This document shows positions 45,019 to 57,460 of a stretch of DNA of 64,000 nucleotides, piece by piece. The notes beneath the pieces are model-generated. The model was not told where the DNA came from and made no database searches. It worked only from the letters and a program-made list of their open reading frames with translations. How positions within the stretch are numbered: the stretch's first letter is position 1; each line of letters opens with the position of its first letter. Origin of the DNA: Methylomonas fluvii (GTDB lineage: Bacteria; Pseudomonadota; Gammaproteobacteria; Methylococcales; Methylomonadaceae); the NCBI RefSeq assembly GCF_014850975.1, contig NZ_JACXST010000001.1, positions 992,001 to 1,056,000 of the forward strand. The letters are read 5' to 3'. Made by a program: the position numbers and the translations under genes.

Positions 45019-45870
45019 ATGTCGCTGGCCGTCGTTTACAGCCGGGGCCGCTCCGGTATAGACGCCCCGCAGGTGACGGTGGAAGTGCATGTCAGTAGCG
45101 GCTTGCCGGCTCTAAACATAGTCGGCTTGCCCGAGACGGCGGTGAAAGAAAGCAAGGATAGGGTACGCGGGGCGATCATCAACTCGCACTTCGAATTTCC
45201 GTTCCAGCGCATCACTATCAACCTGGCACCCGCCGATTTACCCAAAGAAGGTGGGCGCTTTGATTTGGCGATTGCCTTGGGCATCCTGGCCGCTTCCGGG
45301 CAAATCCCCAAAGACGCACTGCACGAATACGAATGCATAGGCGAGCTGTCGCTAGGCGGGGAGTTGCGGCCTATTCCCGGCGCGTTGCCGGTAGCGATTC
45401 ATTGCCGCAATGCTTTTAGGCAACTGATTCTGCCTGCTGGTTGCGCGGCGGAGGCGTCGTTAATCAAGGATGCGCAACTGCTGCCGGCCAGAACGCTGCT
45501 GGAAGTCTGCGCCCATTTGGCGGGCCGGCAAGCCATCGCGCCACCCGACATTAATCTCAGCTTCGAGCAAGCAGTTCACACGGTCGATTTTGCCGACGTG
45601 CATGGCCAATTTCACGTCAAGCGGGCGATGGAAATCGCCGCCGCCGGGAAACACAATTTATTGATGCTTGGGCCTCCCGGCACCGGCAAGTCCATGCTGG
45701 CGGCACGCTTGCCGACTATTTTGCCGGAACTCAGCGAACAGCAAGCCCAGGAAACCGCCGCGCTGGCCTCGATCAGCGACCATGGCTTGAACGTCAGCCG
45801 CTGGCGGCAGCCACCGTACAGAGCGCCGCATCACACCGCATCAGCTGCGGCTTTGGTTGGCGGCGTGTAA
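45019..45870 (+). pseudogene. comM: comM (yifB), 3' half lost at an island boundary
   Basis: The 283-codon frame is the N-terminal part of a ComM/YifB AAA ATPase, normally about 500 aa. It has the Lon-like domain (LPALNIVGLPETAVKESKDR) and Walker A GPPGTGKS, and it ends after PYRAPHHTASAAALVGG, in the middle of the conserved region before Walker B. The stop TAA belongs to foreign DNA. No remaining part of comM was found in the window. ComM helps branch migration in natural transformation. This point in comM is a known target of Tn7-like and AbaR-type islands. Confidence 0.88.
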
Positions 45871-46132: not shown

Positions 46133-46462
46133 ATGTCAGGATCAAATGGAAGTAGCGGTGTTGGAAGCGGCTTTTGGGAAAGCGAAGAGAGTTGTGAAGC
46201 ATTAGTAATTGACACACAACTTAGTTCCCCCAAACCTGACGTTATTTCGGATATCTCAGTTGGCGATCAGCTGGAAATTTCGGCACAGCCAATTGGAACT
46301 ACCACAGTAGTCGTTGCGCTACATAAGGGTAAAGTTGCAGGTGGATTGGCATCCCCGAAAATACGACGGTTGCTTGAATGTTTGGCAGGTGGCACTCGGT
46401 ACGTTGCTCGAGTCACCGATAAGAACGACGGTCAGATTCGCGTGCGTGTTAGTCCTCAATGA
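46133..46462 (+). CDS. Small Gly/Ser-headed protein of the QueC module
   Basis: A 109-aa protein that I do not recognise. It begins with a flexible MSGSNGSSGVGSG stretch and continues as a compact beta-rich domain (DQLEISAQ, TTVVVALHKGKVAGGL, LLECLAGGTRYVARV). No signal peptide or membrane segment. Its stop overlaps the ATG of the PfkB-fusion gene as ATGA, so it is translationally coupled to it. A good ribosome site (GAGGG) precedes the ATG. The exposed Gly/Ser N-terminus could be a place for modification by the neighbouring enzymes, which is speculation. Confidence 0.75.
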   Translation: MSGSNGSSGVGSGFWESEESCEALVIDTQLSSPKPDVISDISVGDQLEISAQPIGTTTVVVALHKGKVAGGLASPKIRRLLECLAGGTRYVARVTDKNDGQIRVRVSPQ

Positions 46463-47694
46463 ATTCAACAACAAATAATACTTACCCTATAGCAGTCGTC
46501 GGCGGGGTGTATCTTGAGCGCTGCATGCGACCAGCTTGGCAAGAGGTGTACGGTTCAGCAGGAAGAGCAGCATCCGCCATGGCGGCAATGGGCGTATTTG
46601 TTGAGCTACACACCTATTACGATTCAATAACAGAGCCTGTATTAATTTCTCGAGCAGCCATTGAAGGATTTAAGTTCTCAGGGGAAAGCATTCAAAAGTC
46701 TATACTTTTTGATTACGACCACGGCTTAGCCACTCCACGCATCTATAGTTCTGATGGTAGTCAATCTTCGCTACGCTTACAGGCCGAACAGGTTTTACGC
46801 TTCGGCATGCTGGAAGGCAGCGCATCTGTTCATGGTAAGAGAGTTGTGTACGACCCGCAGAGCCCAGCAAAGCCTGAGGCATTTCATCAAAACGGATCTA
46901 CAGCAAACGAACTTGCTCTGATTCTTAATCGTCGCGAGGCCCAGCTGTTAAGCGGTGGGGAAAGTAAATCAGTTGACTTAATTGCCAAGTCATTGGTTCT
47001 TGATGGCCATGCTCAAGTTGTAGTCATTAAATGCGGTCCACTGGGTGCTTTGGTTCATGATGGTAAGTCAACTGATCTAGTTCCAGCCTATCGGTCACGC
47101 TCCGTATGGAAAATAGGATCCGGGGATAACTTTGCTGCACATTTTGCATTGCGATGGATGGAGGAAGGGAAATCGGCCGCCGAAAGTGCGGACCTTGCCT
47201 CACGAGCAACGGCATACTATTGCCAAAGCAGAGGTTTTGCCATACCAGAAATATTCGAATCATTCACACCAGAAGCAATTGTTCCCTCTGAGGCATTTCG
47301 AAATGGGCGCCGTCCGGTTGTCTATTTGGCAGGCCCTTTCTTTACTTTAGCTCAGCTCTGGATCGTTGAGCAAGCACGGAAAGACTTAACGGATATGGGG
47401 CTTGAGGTATTCTCACCGTATCACGATGTGGGTTGCGGTAGTGCTGGGGACGTAGTGATGTTTGACTTAGCGGGCATCGAGAGAGCAGACATCATTTTTG
47501 CCATTGGCGACGGCATGGACTCAGGCACAATTTATGAGATTGGCTACGCTAGAGCCAAAGTTAAACCTGTGATCGTTTATTGTGAAAACGAGTCCCAGGA
47601 AAACAAAAAAATGATGCAAGGTTCGTCATGCCTTATGTGCGATGACTATGTTAGCGCTATCTATCATGCAATTTGGACTGCGTGTAGTCTATGA
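46459..47694 (+). CDS. PfkB-like sugar/nucleoside kinase fused to a nucleoside deoxyribosyltransferase-like domain
   Basis: A 411-aa fusion. Residues ~8-265 are a PfkB-type kinase: VVYDPQSP, the NxxE-like NRREAQLLSG, VVIKCGPLGALV and the catalytic GSGDNF with Asp223. Residues ~287-405 resemble nucleoside 2-deoxyribosyltransferases: VYLAGPFF, FSPYHDVG, and DSGTIYEIGYA with probable catalytic Glu360. The combination suggests handling of a nucleoside: cleaving or exchanging its base and phosphorylating the sugar. It overlaps both neighbours by 4 bases, so it is a core part of the module. Confidence 0.85.
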   Translation: MNSTTNNTYPIAVVGGVYLERCMRPAWQEVYGSAGRAASAMAAMGVFVELHTYYDSITEPVLISRAAIEGFKFSGESIQKSILFDYDHGLATPRIYSSDGSQSSLRLQAEQVLRFGMLEGSASVHGKRVVYDPQSPAKPEAFHQNGSTANELALILNRREAQLLSGGESKSVDLIAKSLVLDGHAQVVVIKCGPLGALVHDGKSTDLVPAYRSRSVWKIGSGDNFAAHFALRWMEEGKSAAESADLASRATAYYCQSRGFAIPEIFESFTPEAIVPSEAFRNGRRPVVYLAGPFFTLAQLWIVEQARKDLTDMGLEVFSPYHDVGCGSAGDVVMFDLAGIERADIIFAIGDGMDSGTIYEIGYARAKVKPVIVYCENESQENKKMMQGSSCLMCDDYVSAIYHAIWTACSL

Positions 47695-48296
47695 GGACTG
47701 CTTTATTATTATCTGGTGGAATGGATTCACTGGCTATTGCATGGTGGAAACACCCTGACCACTGTTTTACTATTGATTATGGGCAGCTCGCGGCCGAAGC
47801 AGAGATAACTGCATCAAAGGTTATCTGTGAGAAATTGGGCATCGAGCATCATGTCATCCGTATCGATTGCAGGTCTCTGGGCTCGGGAGATATGGCTGGT
47901 ACACCTCCAGATGGATATGCCCCTGCCAGCGATTGGTGGCCCTATCGAAATCAAATGTTGCTAACCTTTGCCGCCATGAAGGCCTTACCCTTGGGTGTCA
48001 AGTCGCTTTGGATTGGCTCCGTAAAATCCGATAAGTCCCATCAAGACGGCACTATCCAATTTTTGGAAAGCATGAGCGCCTTACTGTCTCTCCAAGAAGG
48101 AGGCATGACAGTTAGTGCTCCTGCTATCGATATGACGACTCCTGAACTGATTCGACACGCAGGCGTCCCTAAAAATATTCTAAGTTGGGCACACAGTTGT
48201 CATAAAGCAAACGTTGCGTGCGCAAACTGTCGAGGATGTAATAAGTATTTTGAGGTGCTTTATGAGCTCAATGGCGGAATGGATAGACTTGGGTAA
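47691..48296 (+). CDS. QueC-like 7-cyano-7-deazaguanine synthase homolog
   Basis: A 201-aa ATP-dependent ligase of the QueC family. The PP-loop SGGMDS (8-13), the PYRNQMLL segment and the zinc site Cys170, Cys177, Cys180, Cys183 are present. The normal SGYPDC motif is changed to SHQDGT. Canonical QueC makes preQ0 from 7-carboxy-7-deazaguanine. No queD, queE or queF lies nearby, and its partners are defence-like, so a specialised role similar to the QueC-like Cap9 of type IV CBASS is more likely. ATGA overlap with the previous gene. Confidence 0.85.
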   Translation: MRTALLLSGGMDSLAIAWWKHPDHCFTIDYGQLAAEAEITASKVICEKLGIEHHVIRIDCRSLGSGDMAGTPPDGYAPASDWWPYRNQMLLTFAAMKALPLGVKSLWIGSVKSDKSHQDGTIQFLESMSALLSLQEGGMTVSAPAIDMTTPELIRHAGVPKNILSWAHSCHKANVACANCRGCNKYFEVLYELNGGMDRLG

Positions 48297-48957
48297 TCCT
48301 TTCCCCCGTCTGGTGCCTAATTGCTATACACCTATAAGTTGGCCTAAGAGAAACGTAATTCAATTACCCCTGACAATTACTGCCGAGGAAAGACAGGAAT
48401 CTGTAATCAATATACTGCTTCGTCGTCGCACGCGACGCCAGTTTTCTAATTTGAGTATGGAAGCACTTGGCTCTTTACTTTGGGTGTGCTGCCATACTCA
48501 AGAATTAGGTAGTGACCACTTAGGGTTTCCTTTGTCACGCCGCCCAAGCCCATCGGGCGGCGCGATTCATCCCGTCCACCTTCTTGTGCTGCTACCCCAA
48601 GAAAACTGCTGGTACCGTTACGATCCTAAGGAACATGCATTACACGAAACGCCCAGTAAACTGGATGCAACGATAGTGAGGAGTTCTATGCAAACCATAG
48701 TTGCTGCACCATCGGCGACATTGTTCATCCTTGCTGCGGAACCAGAGATGACAGCAGCAAAATATGAGGCCTCTGCAAGCCTAGTATGGAGGGATGCCGG
48801 CGTGATACTTGGGATATTAGCTATCGCTGCAGAAGCCCTTGATCTCAGTTTTTGTCCATTGGGAGTAACTGGCGAGCCTTGGGTAAGCCAGTTACTCGAA
48901 CAACCGGGTTTGTTTGGTGTCGGCTGTGCCTTTGTTGGAGCGACTCCGTCCTCTTGA
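48262..48957 (+). CDS. SagB/ThcOx-type nitroreductase
   Basis: A 231-aa FMN-dependent oxidoreductase from the ATG at 48262 (48271 is an alternative). Family features: LLRRRTRRQFSN, then RPSPSGGAIHPVHLLVLL, WYRYDPKEHAL and VWRDAGVILGILAIAAEAL. Relatives oxidise azolines to azoles in peptide natural products. Here no precursor-cyclase pair is present, so its substrate is unknown. It overlaps the end of the QueC-like gene by 35 bases and its last 66 bases overlap the convergent glycosylase gene. Confidence 0.85.
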   Translation: MSSMAEWIDLGNPFPRLVPNCYTPISWPKRNVIQLPLTITAEERQESVINILLRRRTRRQFSNLSMEALGSLLWVCCHTQELGSDHLGFPLSRRPSPSGGAIHPVHLLVLLPQENCWYRYDPKEHALHETPSKLDATIVRSSMQTIVAAPSATLFILAAEPEMTAAKYEASASLVWRDAGVILGILAIAAEALDLSFCPLGVTGEPWVSQLLEQPGLFGVGCAFVGATPSS

Positions 48958-49761
48958 TGAATTAGTCACAAGAACATTAGACGACGAGCGGGGACGAACT
49001 CCGGCTAAACTCCCTCCCATCAACTGAGTAACGGTCCTAGGGGAGGACATCATTTCAAACCAGATAATTGCATCTAGCTCAGAAGGGCGGGCTCCGATAG
49101 CCTGAGCAAAACGTATAAATTGTTCCTCTAGTTCTAAATAGTTCTTCTCTACCGTTAGGTTTTCATCAAAGAACTTCGCCAGTGCACCCGCACGCAGTAC
49201 GTGAATATCCAGAATTGCGACATCATCCGCGTTTAGCCAGTTACGTGCGACCCACGACGCCGTTTTGAGTCCAATACCAGGCAATTGGATGAGCCATTGG
49301 CGTAATGTCTTTCCACTGTTTAATGGTGGAGTTTCTGTAGACAGCCGCAATAATGCTTTACTCAAATAATGTGCTTTTTGTTTTGCAAAGCGGTATCGAA
49401 TCTGACGACCATCGATTTCAAGCGGGTGGGAAAGTACATCAAATATCTCTGATTCGGTTGGAGTATTAGCCAGCATACCAAGTGTTTGGAGTCTTCGAAA
49501 TGCGGCAAGACCGACATTAGCCGGAATTCCATGGCCGCCTAGAAGACACGCGCCGACCTCCTCGGCAAGTGTACTTCCTAGTCGGTGCCGTGGGGATATT
49601 CCTGTGATACGGCGTGCCATGACTTGGTAAGTCCAATATGCTGGAGTAGGAAACGCTTCAATTGGTCCCCAAGGAATTCCAGGTAGCACAAAGGTGTCTG
49701 AAGATGGCAGTTCGATTTGCACTACGGCAGAGTCTATGAAAATTGCAGCGGACTGCCTCAT
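48892..49761 (-). CDS. OGG-like HhH-GPD DNA glycosylase/lyase
   Basis: A 289-aa protein with the helix-hairpin-helix LPGIGLKTASW (catalytic Lys166) and the downstream Asp185 in VAILDIHVLRA, the full set of a bifunctional 8-oxoguanine-type glycosylase. The N-terminal ~110 residues are not the usual OGG start. OGG-like proteins accompany QueC-like proteins in type IV CBASS, so their pairing here is notable. Its ATG overlaps the stop of the methylase gene (ATGA), and its 3' end overlaps the nitroreductase gene. The C-terminus is basic and Ser/Arg-rich. Confidence 0.85.
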   Translation of the reverse strand: MRQSAAIFIDSAVVQIELPSSDTFVLPGIPWGPIEAFPTPAYWTYQVMARRITGISPRHRLGSTLAEEVGACLLGGHGIPANVGLAAFRRLQTLGMLANTPTESEIFDVLSHPLEIDGRQIRYRFAKQKAHYLSKALLRLSTETPPLNSGKTLRQWLIQLPGIGLKTASWVARNWLNADDVAILDIHVLRAGALAKFFDENLTVEKNYLELEEQFIRFAQAIGARPSELDAIIWFEMMSSPRTVTQLMGGSLAGVRPRSSSNVLVTNSSRGRSRSNKGTADTKQTRLFE

Positions 49762-50435
49762 AAGTGTCTCGACTCGGTTAAGTACTGGGCATTGAGTGCA
49801 TGCAAAAGGTGCTCTCGCTCAACTGGTTCCATACGGTCAAACCGATCAAACAAACGCTGGTGGCGGCGCTTGTTCGTCTGCCGATCTCGATATGTCTCCC
49901 CGAAATATGAAGCATCATGAAGCTTAGTTGGGGGGGGGAAATTCATCCAGACACACTCTGTACGTACATCTACGTGGGTCTTTGACAAAAACGTTGATTT
50001 GCGCCAATTTGCCAGTCGCAGCTCATACATCGAATTGTCGTAACCCGAAAGCATTACCATGCAAGGCAAAGCAATCAAAACATCCAACAGCCGGCAATGA
50101 TCCTTGTACGAATACTCATGCCGATAAATTTTCGAATTTCTTCGAGATTCGGGTAAATATGGGGGGTCAGCATAAACTAACTCCCCTCCTTGAAAATCAT
50201 ATTTCTCAAGAAACGAAACGGCGTCACCGTGAACAAGAGTGCAATAGTTCGGATACCGTTGCTGCCAGTTAGCAATAACCGCCTCATCTGCATCGATACC
50301 AAAATTGATTTGAGCGGTCTTTTTGTTCCTTAGCACAGCTCCGCCACCTAAGTGAGATTCAATATAGGTTGTGTGTGCTGGCATCAAATTAATTAGCCGC
50401 TGGTAGCATTTGCCTTTTCCGCCTGGGTATATCAT
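49758..50435 (-). CDS. D12-class DNA adenine N6-methyltransferase (Dam-like)
   Basis: A 225-aa methylase with the D12/Dam order of motifs: YPGGKGK (SAM-binding start), SHLGGGAVL, VHGDAVSFL and the catalytic ADPPY (90-93). No restriction endonuclease gene adjoins it. It is translationally coupled to the glycosylase downstream and is the first gene of that two-gene unit. It could mark host DNA for protection from the module or methylate a modified base; the target site is not readable. Confidence 0.88.
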   Translation of the reverse strand: MIYPGGKGKCYQRLINLMPAHTTYIESHLGGGAVLRNKKTAQINFGIDADEAVIANWQQRYPNYCTLVHGDAVSFLEKYDFQGGELVYADPPYLPESRRNSKIYRHEYSYKDHCRLLDVLIALPCMVMLSGYDNSMYELRLANWRKSTFLSKTHVDVRTECVWMNFPPPTKLHDASYFGETYRDRQTNKRRHQRLFDRFDRMEPVEREHLLHALNAQYLTESRHL

Positions 50436-51264: not shown

Positions 51265-51329
51265 CAACGGAGCGGGAATGTATTGGATAGTTGAGTGCCT
51301 TATTTTGTTTACTTTTTGTTAGGTTACAC

Positions 51330-52097
51330 ATGGCTGGTCCAACACTGTCAACAATCAAAAGGCTTTTCGCCCTCTCCTGTAATCAATGTGCATTTCCTGA
51401 TTGCCACACACCACTAATCGAAGAGTCAGGAACGATTACAGGCGAGATATGCCATATCCGCTCTTCAAGCCAGGGCGGCCCGCGCTTTGACGAAAACCAA
51501 AGTGATCTTGAGCGTCATGCTGCAGCCAATCTCATACTTCTCTGCGCGCGGCATCATAAAATAATCGACTCCGAACCTAATAAATATTCAACGCAAGTTC
51601 TCGAAATTATAAAGCGCAAGCATGAGCAACCTGAATTGGTTGAAATTTCTCCGATGACAACTAAGGTGGCACAGAGACTTTTGGACAATTACATGTCTGT
51701 GACCATTCAATCGAATTCAGGTCAAATTGCAATTCAGAGTCCTGGGGCTATTCAAGCACACACTGTAAACGTCAAAACTACGAAGTCGAAGATTACAATT
51801 GCACCACCGGCTGGAAGCATAGCAAACGATAGAAAAATGTTGTCTTACTGCAAATACTTAATTGATCGCTATCAAGAATTTCAAAAGGGTGATTCTAATA
51901 AGACTGGTGATTTCAAGTATATGGCTATTCACGCGGCCCTGAAGCGTGAGTTTAAGTGTGATTGGAAATTACTGCCAACAGATCGGTTTAACGAGTTGAT
52001 TACTTTCCTTCAGCATCGTGTAGACAATACCAAACTGGGTCGTATCAATCGTGCAAAATCAAATCCGAACTATCACCCATTCGCAGATCATGAATAA
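51330..52097 (+). CDS. HNH-nuclease-like protein
   Basis: A 255-aa protein from the ATG at 51330 (an upstream in-frame start at 51291 has less support). Residues ~15-82 are an HNH domain with zinc ligands: Cys17, Cys20, Cys25, His42 in GEICHIRS, Asn67 in AANLILLC, Cys72 and HH at 75-76. The C-terminal ~150 residues are unrecognised, with a beta-rich stretch (SVTIQSNSGQIAIQS) followed by helices. Such HNH proteins with variable C-termini are frequent effectors in defence islands; no partner gene is obvious beside it. Confidence 0.78.
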   Translation: MAGPTLSTIKRLFALSCNQCAFPDCHTPLIEESGTITGEICHIRSSSQGGPRFDENQSDLERHAAANLILLCARHHKIIDSEPNKYSTQVLEIIKRKHEQPELVEISPMTTKVAQRLLDNYMSVTIQSNSGQIAIQSPGAIQAHTVNVKTTKSKITIAPPAGSIANDRKMLSYCKYLIDRYQEFQKGDSNKTGDFKYMAIHAALKREFKCDWKLLPTDRFNELITFLQHRVDNTKLGRINRAKSNPNYHPFADHE

Positions 52098-52558: not shown

Positions 52559-53752
52559 TTAATCGACATCACCTTGCTGAATTTTGTGTAGTTTATCCAA
52601 AAGACTTGTTAAATCTGGGATAGAAGTTTCCACACTTGCTGAGTTTATAGAATCACTTATTTCAGGGTCATTCTTGGCTTCGATGTCGGTGGTTTCTTTT
52701 GATCGTTTGAGATTTTCCTCTTCCAGATAGCTGTTAAGTCGATCCATTAGTTCGTCATGACGCTGAGGAACGTTATCAAAATGCCCAAAGCTGCAGCGCT
52801 GTATAAATGGCCGCATGACGAATCGATGCTGTGATGACTTGAAGTATTCGTCACAAAAGTCACGAACCATTTCATGTGTTACGGGACGCAAGTTAGAAAG
52901 CTTATCTTCATGTTCATTCAATCGGTCACCTTTTCCTGCATCCAACCAAAAGCATGGGTATGCACAGCCTCCGGTCACTCCCTTCAGCGACACACGACCG
53001 TCAAAATATATTTCTGGCTTACGAACGCCTCCTTGGTAAGTTGACTTTATATCAAGAGCAGAGTATGCAACCAAGTACGCTAGATCTACAGAAATAATAA
53101 ATTTTCGCGGCGTCGCGAGTGTTGCAATTCTAAATCCCGTATCAATAGATGGGCCTATGTAGTCAACCACTATTTGATGCCCGTTGCTGTCACACTTATT
53201 TCTATATAGTTCAAATGCTGAAATAACAGGGTCATCGGGAATATTATTATTTTCCGATCTATCACCGAAATTGTTTTCGAAGCAAACAAAAGCGTTATTT
53301 ATCGGGAACCCTGCAATCCATGCCGAACCTTTAATATCTAAAATAGCCTCATCGTCCCGGTTTTGAAATTTTGAACGCTGCTCATGCATGGTTTCAACCC
53401 ATGCACGGATCAAAGCGAGCGCTTCTCTTGGATCTGACAGTCTAGCGCTATATAAGATTTCATCGCCTCGCCCTTTCCAGAACTTTGGTTCTGCCTTGAC
53501 CACAGCAGCCCAGTCATCCGGTAGATCTTTTTTTGTTAGCTCCCATTTTCGTTGAAAGCCAGTAGAAAATTCGCGAAAGAACCCTGATATAGCGTAAACC
53601 CAGGACTCTACTGGGACTTTGCCGGGTAAATATGTGTCGTCGTGTCTAGGGCTACGTCTTGCAAGCTGTTTGAATGCTGTCGAACCTACAATATCAGCAC
53701 TTAAAAATAGGCGAAGTTCTGGTTCAAACCGCGAAGGGTTTTCTTGATCCAT
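52559..53752 (-). CDS. pycC: Class III nucleotide cyclase, Pycsar PycC-like
   Basis: A 397-aa cytoplasmic protein. The N-terminal domain shows a class III cyclase core: FLSADIVGSTAFK with metal-binding Asp20 and WKGRGDEILYS with Asp97. In Pycsar systems such cyclases make cCMP or cUMP upon phage infection. Here the gene is 1.3 kb from, and co-oriented with, a protein of the Pycsar membrane-effector type, which supports that role over ordinary cAMP signalling. The C-terminal ~60 residues are acidic and probably disordered. Base specificity cannot be read by eye. Confidence 0.78.
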   Translation of the reverse strand: MDQENPSRFEPELRLFLSADIVGSTAFKQLARRSPRHDDTYLPGKVPVESWVYAISGFFREFSTGFQRKWELTKKDLPDDWAAVVKAEPKFWKGRGDEILYSARLSDPREALALIRAWVETMHEQRSKFQNRDDEAILDIKGSAWIAGFPINNAFVCFENNFGDRSENNNIPDDPVISAFELYRNKCDSNGHQIVVDYIGPSIDTGFRIATLATPRKFIISVDLAYLVAYSALDIKSTYQGGVRKPEIYFDGRVSLKGVTGGCAYPCFWLDAGKGDRLNEHEDKLSNLRPVTHEMVRDFCDEYFKSSQHRFVMRPFIQRCSFGHFDNVPQRHDELMDRLNSYLEEENLKRSKETTDIEAKNDPEISDSINSASVETSIPDLTSLLDKLHKIQQGDVD

Positions 53753-53939
53753 TGTTTATATCAAATAGGTTGCTGACCACATTTCGACGAGAATCACCCA
53801 ATTGCTAAGCTTTAGCGCTAGTTGTGTTTTTGTTGGATGAATAAATAGTTTGTACAGATATTTTTGGCTTGTGCGGCTGACAAAGTTACATATGCTGTTG
53901 ATTTTTATAGATACATCATGTACTAGGTAGCACCAAAGG

Positions 53940-54458
53940 TTATGCTAGACCAAGATGCCCTGCCATTACTGTCGCCGCTTGCTGGGATACCTTGAACTTC
54001 TCGGATAGCAATAGAATATTGCCGCCTACTTCAATAAAGTAATCTCTAAACTCTTCCTCTGGCATTAAGAAAGAAGCGGCAAACCAATTTGCCTCAGTTT
54101 CAGCCCTATTTTGTCCATATCGCGCTGCACGCATAGGTGTTTCCTTATCTGGCAACAAATAATGCAGAAAATAATGTCCTAACTCATGACAAATTGTAAA
54201 GCGATCTCGCAACTGACTAGTATGATTAGCCAATATTACTCTAAAATCACCAGGCTTTTCTATAACTATTGACCCTGAATTAGATTCTTTCAAATCCCAC
54301 AAATCATCATAGATAATACAACCGCCAAGAGCCTGTATAATAGGCAACAAATCATCTCCAGGGTTATAACTAAAATGCTTAGTTACAGCCTTTGAAAAAT
54401 TATTGATTTCTGCTCGCGGTAGGTTGCATGATTCTGGCTGACAATAATGTTCAGACAT
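53940..54458 (-). CDS. ImmA/IrrE-family metallopeptidase
   Basis: A 172-aa zinc protease with HELGH (91-95) and the third ligand Glu122 in AETEANWFAA, typical of ImmA/IrrE proteins that cleave repressors. It has no DNA-binding domain. A partner repressor gene is not adjacent. It lies 23 bases after the PycTM-like gene and 187 bases before the cyclase gene, so it is likely part of the same operon. A role in activating or controlling the cyclase system is inference. Confidence 0.85.
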   Translation of the reverse strand: MSEHYCQPESCNLPRAEINNFSKAVTKHFSYNPGDDLLPIIQALGGCIIYDDLWDLKESNSGSIVIEKPGDFRVILANHTSQLRDRFTICHELGHYFLHYLLPDKETPMRAARYGQNRAETEANWFAASFLMPEEEFRDYFIEVGGNILLLSEKFKVSQQAATVMAGHLGLA

Positions 54459-54481
54459 TTATAGCCTCCTCATAATTTTTA

Positions 54482-55033
54482 TTAGTTAATTCCAGAGATT
54501 AGAGATACTAGACTAAGAATTGTTCCCGCCGAAATAAAAATCGCAGAATATCGTAAGACGGTAAATTTTTGTTTAGCAATTTTTGACAAGTCAAACGAAT
54601 GGGCAAGAATCTCAGACCTAAAGTCATCATCACTCATACCGAGAACCTTGTTAACAAAATCATTTTTACTTGGATGACCATCCACAATATCCAGCCATGA
54701 GAGCACCCTCCCATTTTGCTCTTTGCCAAATTTTGGCCATACACATATCAAGGATGAAAATATAGTGAGTCCCAAAAACAAAATTGCAACTTCGCCAAAA
54801 GCTTGGCCTATGCTCAACTGACAAATATGTGCTTGAAACGCATCAAAGGCATGTTGATTCGAAAGATAGCCAAGCTCTAGTGCACTGCTGGCCAAAAAAA
54901 AAGAAGCCTTTCTGTCAGCAAACCCTATCATCTCGCGTATATAACCGTGCTGATGCGATATAAAATCTTTGGCTACATTCGGTTTGCTAGTCTCACTTTC
55001 CAGAGGTTTTACGTTTGTTGTTGACTCACTCAT
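54482..55033 (-). CDS. PycTM-like Pycsar membrane effector (DUF5706-type)
   Basis: A 183-aa protein. The segment YIREMIGFADRKASFFLA (~31-48) matches the start of the Pycsar effector domain, followed by hydrophobic segments at ~45-58, ~76-98 and ~160-182, and the late SKIAKQKFTVLRYS block typical of the family. In known systems the effector is triggered by cCMP or cUMP and damages the inner membrane. It is the first well-supported gene of the minus-strand unit leading to the ImmA-like protease and the cyclase. Family call is by pattern, not by search. Confidence 0.72.
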   Translation of the reverse strand: MSESTTNVKPLESETSKPNVAKDFISHQHGYIREMIGFADRKASFFLASSALELGYLSNQHAFDAFQAHICQLSIGQAFGEVAILFLGLTIFSSLICVWPKFGKEQNGRVLSWLDIVDGHPSKNDFVNKVLGMSDDDFRSEILAHSFDLSKIAKQKFTVLRYSAIFISAGTILSLVSLISGIN

Positions 55034-56864: not shown

Positions 56865-57144
56865 CTTTCCACATCAATTCAGGAACAGGTTTTGTTTTTG
56901 CCGCATCCATTCACCTGTCGCCAAGGTCTGTATCTGCAAGGGATCTAAGCCACGTTGTTGCTATAGTCGATGTCTTCAAGCACGGCCTGGGAATAACGGA
57001 GTTTGGTTGTTTTCAGGAGTCTTTCGATTTTATCCTTTCAGGATATTCGGGCAAAAAACTAACATTGAATCTTGCCTAAGTAAACATAAGGCTCAGCCAA
57101 TTCAATTCTCATTTAGCGTCATTTCGTTTATACTCTCTGCCACG

Positions 57145-57340
57145 ATTAGGTGTCTTGGTATGCGTTCTGCGTATCAAGGTGAAACGGGAAGTCCGGTGCG
57201 ATTTGAGATTAATCTCGGTCAAATCCGGCGCAGCCCCCGCTGCTGTAAGCCTGATGAATCTCCTTTTTGCCACTGCACGGTTAGTGTGGGAAGGCGGTAG
57301 ATTCAGATGACGGCAAGCCAGAAGACCGGCCTGATCGAAT
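57145..57340 (+). ncRNA. Cobalamin riboswitch
   Basis: The leader before the cobalamin operon contains the hallmarks of the B12 riboswitch: an opening GGTGAAACGGGAA segment (~57177), CGCAGCCCCCGCTGC (~57228), GGAAGGC near 57290 and the B12 box AGCCAGAAGACCGGCCTG at 57316-57333. Downstream, GGAGCCG at ~57362 can pair with CGGCTCC at ~57423, a possible expression platform ahead of the ribosome site AGGAG at 57449. It should shut off the operon when cobalamin is plentiful. Confidence 0.92.
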
Positions 57341-57460
57341 GTAGGATGCCGACTCCGGAGGGGAGCCGTATGCCAGCGATGCAGCGTGAGCTGTATTTGT
57401 GCGTGCGTGTTTTCTTGCTCGGTCGGCTCCAATTATCCCTGATATTTTAGGAGACTCGAC

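Follow-up and report, generated by a model that had tools for sequence, protein, structure and literature searches.

What might a QueC-like enzyme do when it is encoded between a fusion of a PfkB kinase with a nucleoside deoxyribosyltransferase (PfkB-NDT) and a nitroreductase-type flavoprotein? The question is raised by a six-gene operon in a 64,000-nucleotide stretch of the 5.59 Mb genome of Methylomonas fluvii (NZ_JACXST010000001.1, positions 992,001 to 1,056,000; the window in what follows). Four plus-strand genes, for a small protein, PfkB-NDT, the QueC-like enzyme and a SagB/ThcOx-type oxidase, face two minus-strand genes, for an OGG-type DNA glycosylase/lyase and a Dam-type adenine methyltransferase (Table 1). 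A first-pass annotation made from the sequence alone had described the overlaps between these genes, which we confirmed from the coordinates of the open reading frames (ORFs), and had proposed that the set makes or removes a 7-deazaguanine adduct on a protein or on DNA, with the last two enzymes acting at the DNA level. That interpretation was supported in part and can be made more specific. We consider it likely that the operon conjugates a nucleobase to a protein, which is the most economical form of the adduct proposal; on the fuller explanation, in which such conjugation at a protein N-terminus is the centre of a mobile defence operon, we are evenly divided. At its base lie the linkage of the genes, their intact motif residues, an N-terminal motif of the small protein that is tied to QueC and SagB, and a defence-related, mobile setting, together with a predicted HIRAN fold.

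The QueC-like enzyme and its conserved partners

With the PfkB-NDT protein as bait we collected 114 loci, comprising 80 genome contigs (the best 80 of at least 290 relatives), 6 viral contigs, 15 plasmid regions, 12 sampled genomes and the window. Within 5 kb of the bait there was a small protein in 111, QueC in 112, SagB in 89, OGG in 97 and Dam in 43 (107, 108, 85, 93 and 41 of 110 when identical baits were removed), some of the absences stemming from short flanks; since loci were selected by this bait beforehand and only its best matches were retained, these rates hold given a fairly close PfkB-NDT. The core of small protein, PfkB-NDT and QueC is nearly fixed, OGG is frequent and Dam is optional, which sharpens the first-pass annotation. 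The arrangement is kept across several bacterial phyla and haloarchaeal plasmids, so the gene order is not due to chance, an explanation that linkage across the 114 loci rules out. The genes had been regarded as a linked set, and they do co-occur in nearly all of these loci rather than lying unlinked in relatives. The closest copy among the best 80 relatives is that of Methylomonas methanica, with 90% identity over PfkB-NDT.

A profile of the QueC-like protein searched against the PDB placed Cap9, the QueC-like protein of type IV CBASS (cyclic oligonucleotide-based antiphage signalling system), first (E 2.5e-13) and two canonical QueCs after it, in agreement with the kinship first suggested. 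The SGGxDS motif, Y30, Q32, E38, P84/R86/N87, D119 and the four Cys are each present in at least 108 of 110 sequences, and a Cap9-like site set (ATP loop, RN, Asp, Cys4) is kept; the motif CH(x)5CxxCxGCxK is C170 H171 C177 C180 C183 K185 in the window protein. The marks of canonical QueC, namely YPDC, YxQxHxxE and linkage to queD/queE, are missing, and the YPDC substrate motif reads H-x-D-G. The host has a canonical QueC of its own on another contig (C2), beside a gene judged by eye to encode a QueE-type radical-SAM enzyme; the operon protein is therefore ruled out as the queuosine QueC of the genome, and stands apart from a QueC on which a queD/queE/queF set depends.

Motif residues of the other enzymes are equally intact. 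The Asp of GSGD (D223), which we take to be that of PfkB kinases, and E360, presumably the Glu of the NDT domain, are invariant in 13 aligned PfkB-NDT proteins; OGG has Lys166 and Asp185, which we assume to be catalytic, in 93 of 93 sequences, and Dam has DPPY in 43 of 43.

The small protein is predicted to have a HIRAN-fold domain behind a Ser/Gly tail, modelled with low confidence, that mostly opens Met-Ser-Gly. When N-termini were assigned by the ATG with the best ribosome-binding site (n = 94), 80 read MSG, 5 MGG, 3 MTG, 1 MAG and 5 otherwise; a start of the form M[STGAC]G occurred in 2 of 62 control ORFs. Ser, Thr, Gly, Ala and Cys at residue 2 all permit removal of Met. In the alignment conservation of the tail is concentrated at its tip, the HIRAN domain is conserved as well, and C21 and C83 are invariant. 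Ten window proteins were scanned in each of Pfam, NCBIfam and PADLOC, where the 109-aa protein had no significant match; a Pfam scan of 57 family members at E up to 1 gave 28 families (best E 0.0056), HIRAN not being among the 25 listed, and a sequence search of the PDB gave nothing credible (best E 1.5). This protein would be the natural acceptor of a deazaguanine adduct.

The SagB-type oxidase and residue 2 of the small protein

The fourth protein had been called a nitroreductase or flavin oxidoreductase, and that family match stands, but its closest relatives are oxidases that form thiazoles and oxazoles from azolines. Its profile matched CyaGox/ThcOx, the cyanobactin oxidase, best in the PDB (9e-20), followed by BmdC (1e-12), nitroreductases (3e-10 and weaker) and McbC (0.0018); ThcOx was also the top fold match, and by sequence and fold alike the protein belongs with the SagB-type azoline dehydrogenases. 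The SagB-family peptide dehydrogenase model TIGR03605 matched it at 1e-16 with 60.7 bits, below the curated cut-off of 78.4. The ORF listing has a longer form of the gene, from TTG at 48214.

ThcOx, BmdC and McbC turn azolines into thiazoles or oxazoles, and the substrate of an azoline oxidase is a Ser, Thr or Cys already closed on the preceding carbonyl. Given that such an enzyme needs a cyclised residue, and if QueC acylates Ser2 of the small protein, it follows that loci with SagB should have Ser or Thr at residue 2. Among the resolved loci of a first set, all 87 with SagB had Ser or Thr, and those lacking SagB had Ser in 11 cases and Gly, Ala or Cys in 10 (Fisher 9e-9), a p-value that is not a blind test because the idea came from this set; removal of identical baits left 83/0 against 11/10 (Ser/Thr against other). 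Pooled with a later set, 124 resolved loci clustered at 90% identity gave 85 Ser/Thr and no other with SagB against 13 Ser/Thr and 12 Gly/Ala/Cys lacking it (p 1e-9), and the split was 62/0 against 12/12 at 70% identity and 13/0 against 8/9 at 50% (p 0.003), so that the clustered recount agrees with the unclustered picture. On a PfkB-NDT tree, with a simple model, residue 2 left Ser/Thr six times, all six on SagB-minus branches, which make up 37% of the tree length (p 0.0025). L085, which has Gly2, retains SagB as debris in three pieces with shifted frames (5e-20), at the position of the intact gene in its sister L084, which has Ser2.

Some loci were set aside or scored by hand in these counts. 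The pooled SagB counts leave out L068, L100 and L009, with flanks too short for SagB, the N-termini of L020, L092 and L090 were unresolved, L017 and L182 (and L009) had no small protein, and four rows that duplicate the PfkB sequence of another row were dropped. In the later set L239, L249, L251 and L254 repeat earlier records, and L234 and L235 (no small protein), L242 (no QueC) and L255 (start unclear) were not counted; the near-copies L256/L073, L257/L015, L258/L022+L023 and L247/L248 clustered together. The start of L010 was taken from RefSeq and those of L080 and L178 were chosen by eye, the latter matching the RefSeq start; L176 (MSS) was scored as Ser; the longer ATG was taken for L238, L240, L241, L243, L247 and L248, although the script favoured an internal start; and the small ORF of L236 is broken after its start.

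Genomic setting and variants

The surroundings of the operon support the defence setting that the first-pass annotation had suspected. Clustering of the neighbours of the 114 loci, with names given by eye and supported for some members by annotation or Pfam, yielded a dGTPase at 16 loci (15 within 6 kb), a helix-turn-helix gene at 10, pieces of comM at 9 and Tn7-like transposition genes at 7-8. PADLOC matched 225 families with 94 neighbour ORFs and 51 with 94 control ORFs, where the count is of families and not of proteins with any match, the ORFs were called by length alone, and the samples were 94 of 153 picked neighbours (from 499 candidates) and 94 of 150 controls from two genomes only. 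Among the 25 neighbour families listed are AriA, OLD, PtuA, AbiLi and dGTPase, and 23 of the 25 listed for the controls are GajB/helicase models with one ORF each.

The operon is sporadic, occurring in 7 of 398 genomes of its own phylum. Around the other matches it was present in 7 of 395 genomes of the phylum and 14 of 400 of the order for Mucilaginibacter, in 4 of 385 of the class for Sphingomonas and in 5 of 377 of the phylum for Verrucomicrobia (own or seed genome counted). Of 72,556 plasmids, 37 records carry PfkB-NDT, and all 13 with a match to the window small protein fall among them. No PfkB-NDT match was found at E 1e-10 in 50,697 phage genome records; in IMG/VR 78 loci matched, and only six (L098-L103) match the PfkB part too, the other 72 being excluded. 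In one of the six, L101, QueC is directly followed by a second PfkB-NDT-like gene. A search of 5,426 complete E. coli genomes at megablast sensitivity found the operon in 10, on the chromosome; an environmental isolate, for example, has it at NZ_CP147109.1:4345433-4349767. Both copies inspected have yjcB/pdeC/soxS and a dGTPase as neighbours, and in one the stretch between ssb and yjcB also holds three recombinases and a pair of ATP-dependent nuclease and UvrD-helicase. On Roseobacter-type plasmids (L015 and its near-copy L257) the operon adjoins a Vut_1 transporter annotated for queuosine salvage, which fits a 7-deazaguanine substrate.

Partners vary in several directions, and the system looks modular. 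Two loci, L090 and L242, keep PfkB-NDT and the small protein and have an adenylosuccinate-synthetase-like (PurA-like) gene in place of QueC; their small proteins begin MSKRKD and MKGKPD, with the usual tail motif gone, and the PurA-like ligase is possibly an alternative nucleobase-protein ligase. SagB-minus Bacteroidota have, after QueC, an AAA ATPase and DUF4435 pair (L078 by Pfam; L080 and L094 by eye) or a dGTPase. In some rhizobial copies the gene in this place encodes a nuclease of the Mrr type (by Pfam in L181, by annotation in L253). Rhizobial and related loci L017, L182, L234 and L235 combine a divergent PfkB protein with TIR, OGG and QueC, apparently a separate QueC defence variant.

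In the window the 5' part of comM ends just before the operon, and the Mg_chelatase_C part follows on the contig ~62 kb later, so that comM has undergone a large insertion or rearrangement, with the operon at its edge. Between the two parts there are also an HNH gene, a probable Pycsar-like set and a cobalamin riboswitch (Table 1).

Table 1. Genes and other features of the operon, its window and two variant loci (window positions unless a locus or contig is given)
Feature	Position	Strand	Remarks
Small protein, 109 aa	46133-46462	+	Met-Ser-Gly-Ser tail ~1-21 (low confidence), predicted HIRAN-fold domain 22-109; proposed nucleobase acceptor
PfkB-NDT fusion, 411 aa	46459-47694	+	overlap 4; PF00294 4e-11, Nuc_deoxyrib_tr PF05014 7e-16
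QueC-like protein, 201 aa	47691-48296	+	overlap 4; PF06508 3e-22
SagB/ThcOx-type FMN oxidase (proposed azoline oxidase)	48262-48957	+	ATG start, overlap 35; Nitroreductase PF00881 1e-7
OGG-type HhH DNA glycosylase/lyase, 289 aa	48892-49761	-	Ogg-HhH PF22175 1e-14
Dam/D12 adenine methyltransferase, 225 aa	49758-50435	-	overlap 4 with OGG gene; MethyltransfD12 PF02086 3e-9; optional component
comM, 5' part	45019-45870		
comM, Mg_chelatase_C part	G000:C1:1099793-1100071		
HNH protein	51291-52097		like CBASS-type endonuclease effectors and PDC-M68A (PADLOC 3e-30)
Probable Pycsar-like set	52559-55033		next three rows
Cyclase-like protein	52559-53752		by eye, no Pfam match
IrrE/CapP-like peptidase	53940-54458		
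PycTM-type membrane effector	54482-55033		PADLOC 2e-21
Cobalamin riboswitch	57131-57348		116.6 bits; upstream of cobalamin biosynthesis-like genes (by eye)
PurA-like ligase	L090:11170-12372		next to PfkB-NDT and small protein
PurA-like ligase	L242:7500-8774		next to PfkB-NDT and small protein

Proposed chemistry, its alternatives and significance

The operon had been put forward as a candidate new system, a claim that must be narrowed, as the QueC/PfkB-NDT pair is already in print. The main text of PMC13329287 (Libby et al. 2026, Biochem J) divides PF06508 into clusters, of which Cluster 4 has the motif CH(x)5CxxCxGCxK and in ~89% of its neighbourhoods a PF00294-PF05014 protein, for which purine salvage was guessed. 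By its Cys motif and adjacent PfkB-NDT the operon QueC falls in this subfamily, although the motif given there as YGQ(x)6E is YGQ(x)5E as counted here. The rest of the gene set is not in that main text, in which a term search found no HIRAN, nitroreductase, glycosylase or methyltransferase and in which Cluster 4 has no defence role; among the matches listed from the open-licence literature, no other paper joins these genes.

Two known systems offer precedents. Cap9 joins 7-carboxy-7-deazaguanine (CDG) to an N-terminal glycine, as cited in passages of PMC13279940, which also describe QatB and QatC, a QueC-family enzyme with a partner that has a tail and an N-terminal MGTS motif. The operon resembles type IV CBASS, with its Cap9, Cap10 and deazaguanylation of the CD-NTase, in having a Cap9-closest QueC-like ligase and a partner with a conserved N-terminal motif. 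It differs in that neither a CD-NTase nor a TGT (Cap10-like) was found among the family matches of the ten scanned window proteins, nor a CD-NTase annotated in the plasmid copies, in the proposed HIRAN-fold partner with Ser rather than Gly mostly at residue 2, and in the surrounding PfkB-NDT, SagB, OGG and Dam. The lack of a CD-NTase and a TGT among the scanned proteins, noted already in the first reading of the sequence, rules out ordinary type IV CBASS. The likeness to qatABCD is again a QueC-family enzyme plus a tailed partner with a conserved N-terminal motif, but QatC is ~400 aa with extensions (main text of PMC13329287) and the operon QueC 201 aa, QatC has Thr at the nucleobase-binding Tyr/Asp (passages of PMC13279940) and the operon QueC keeps the Asp, the QatB domain is helical and that of the small protein mostly strands, and no QatA ATPase or QatD TatD nuclease was matched among the scanned proteins. 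By analogy, the operon would work like type IV CBASS or Qat without being a member of either.

We propose that removal of Met1 would expose the Ser2 amine of the HIRAN protein as the acceptor; the Cap9-like QueC would use ATP to couple it to the carboxyl group of a 7-deazaguanine, probably CDG from the host. QueC runs two ATP-dependent reactions, the second of which converts the amide to the nitrile (main text of PMC13329287). In systems with SagB this second step might instead allow the side chain of Ser/Thr to cyclise onto the activated amide and give an oxazoline, QueC being the proposed cyclisation partner, and the ThcOx/SagB-type enzyme, which resembles in sequence and predicted fold the azoline oxidases of pathways for ribosomally synthesized and post-translationally modified peptides, would oxidise it to the oxazole; the prediction of this step, Ser or Thr at residue 2, holds in every resolved case with SagB. 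PfkB-NDT would then add (deoxy)ribose to the base and phosphorylate it to give a protein-linked nucleotide, in place of the TGT of type IV CBASS. The weakest steps are the last, in which the HIRAN domain might recruit the tagged protein to phage DNA, at single-stranded ends or forks, where OGG, and Dam where present, may handle a lesion or mark or serve as effector and self-mark. To propose an oxazole and a protein-linked nucleotide is bold, if testable, and the azole-bridged nucleotide as a whole, made by QueC, SagB and PfkB-NDT in this order, is advanced tentatively and may well be wrong. We are just as hesitant about its corollaries, that the nucleotide at the tip of the HIRAN protein could pair with bases at DNA ends or become joined to those ends, and that the PurA-like ligase of the Bacteroidota variant is a second nucleobase-protein route.

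Several observations weigh against this scheme. Azoline dehydrogenases have a Lys-Tyr dyad, and in the SagB-like proteins the Tyr is present in 89 of 89 and the Lys in only 58 of 89; moreover, unlike RiPP pathways (those of the modified peptides named above), the operon has no YcaO cyclodehydratase among the scanned window proteins. The later set, with Ser in 11 of 11 SagB loci and 5 Ser and 2 Gly in SagB-minus loci, is not significant alone (p 0.14), and its eleven SagB loci include three near-copies of loci in the first set. The PfkB-NDT tree was built quickly, and good support is confined to 40 of its 106 inner branches. In the first set Ser2 persists at eleven SagB-minus loci (at two of these the sequence stops too early for SagB to be seen), so that Ser2 accompanies SagB without being restricted to loci that have it. 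With H-x-D-G in place of the canonical YPDC the base may not be CDG, and in the four TIR-type loci no small protein was found by the small-protein profile, so that QueC may have another substrate there. The HIRAN-type Foldseek matches of the small protein reach only E 4e-3 to 6e-2, and PADLOC mad3 was matched by 7 neighbour ORFs and also by 3 controls.

A possible, if doubtful, alternative keeps the acylation of the HIRAN N-terminus by QueC and lets SagB act elsewhere, for example on the conserved Cys21 or on a partner, the link between Ser2 and SagB then being an effect of lineage. The invariance of C21 and C83 and the persistence of Ser2 in many SagB-minus loci would suit it, but the confinement of all six losses of Ser/Thr to SagB-minus branches and the sister pair L084/L085 argue against it. 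The kinase, base-transfer and azoline oxidase activities also resemble a small-molecule pathway, in which the tail would be a scaffold for a deazaguanine-azole nucleotide released as an antiviral antimetabolite or signal; a tail conserved mainly at its tip and the dGTPase near 16 of the 114 loci would be in keeping with this. We think it unlikely, given that the HIRAN domain is conserved together with the tail, that by eye the eight neighbour clusters present in six or more loci hold no protease or export gene, and that type IV CBASS and Qat set the precedent of a proposed conjugate that remains bound to its protein (passages of PMC13279940).

The DNA version of the adduct proposal survives only as a further rival, and we judge it quite unlikely: a base made by QueC and PfkB-NDT would enter DNA or the deoxynucleoside triphosphates, OGG would remove it and Dam would mark self. 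While 7-deazaguanines are present in phage and bacterial DNA (main text of PMC13329287) and OGG and Dam, at 97 and 43 of the 114 loci, have their motif residues intact, there is no DNA transglycosylase among the scanned window proteins, 17 loci have no OGG within 5 kb (some for want of flank), and the MSG tail with its link to QueC and SagB goes unexplained. Purine salvage or regulation, the genome-neighbourhood guess made for Cluster 4 in the same main text, is very improbable in view of the presence of the operon in only 7 of 398 genomes of its phylum, its association with plasmids, Tn7-like elements and defence neighbours, and the HIRAN protein and SagB, which it does not explain.

The operon measures ~4.3 kb and occurs naturally in some E. 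coli, so it is testable in that organism. If the conjugation explanation is true, it would be the third QueC-dependent system for protein-nucleobase conjugation, of which one has been shown and a second proposed so far, and would have a fold of the DNA-end-binding type as its likely acceptor, a kinase fusion that adds the sugar where type IV CBASS has TGT, and an oxidase that forms azoles; it would point to nucleobase tagging as a general chemistry of immunity and would predict a new type of bond.

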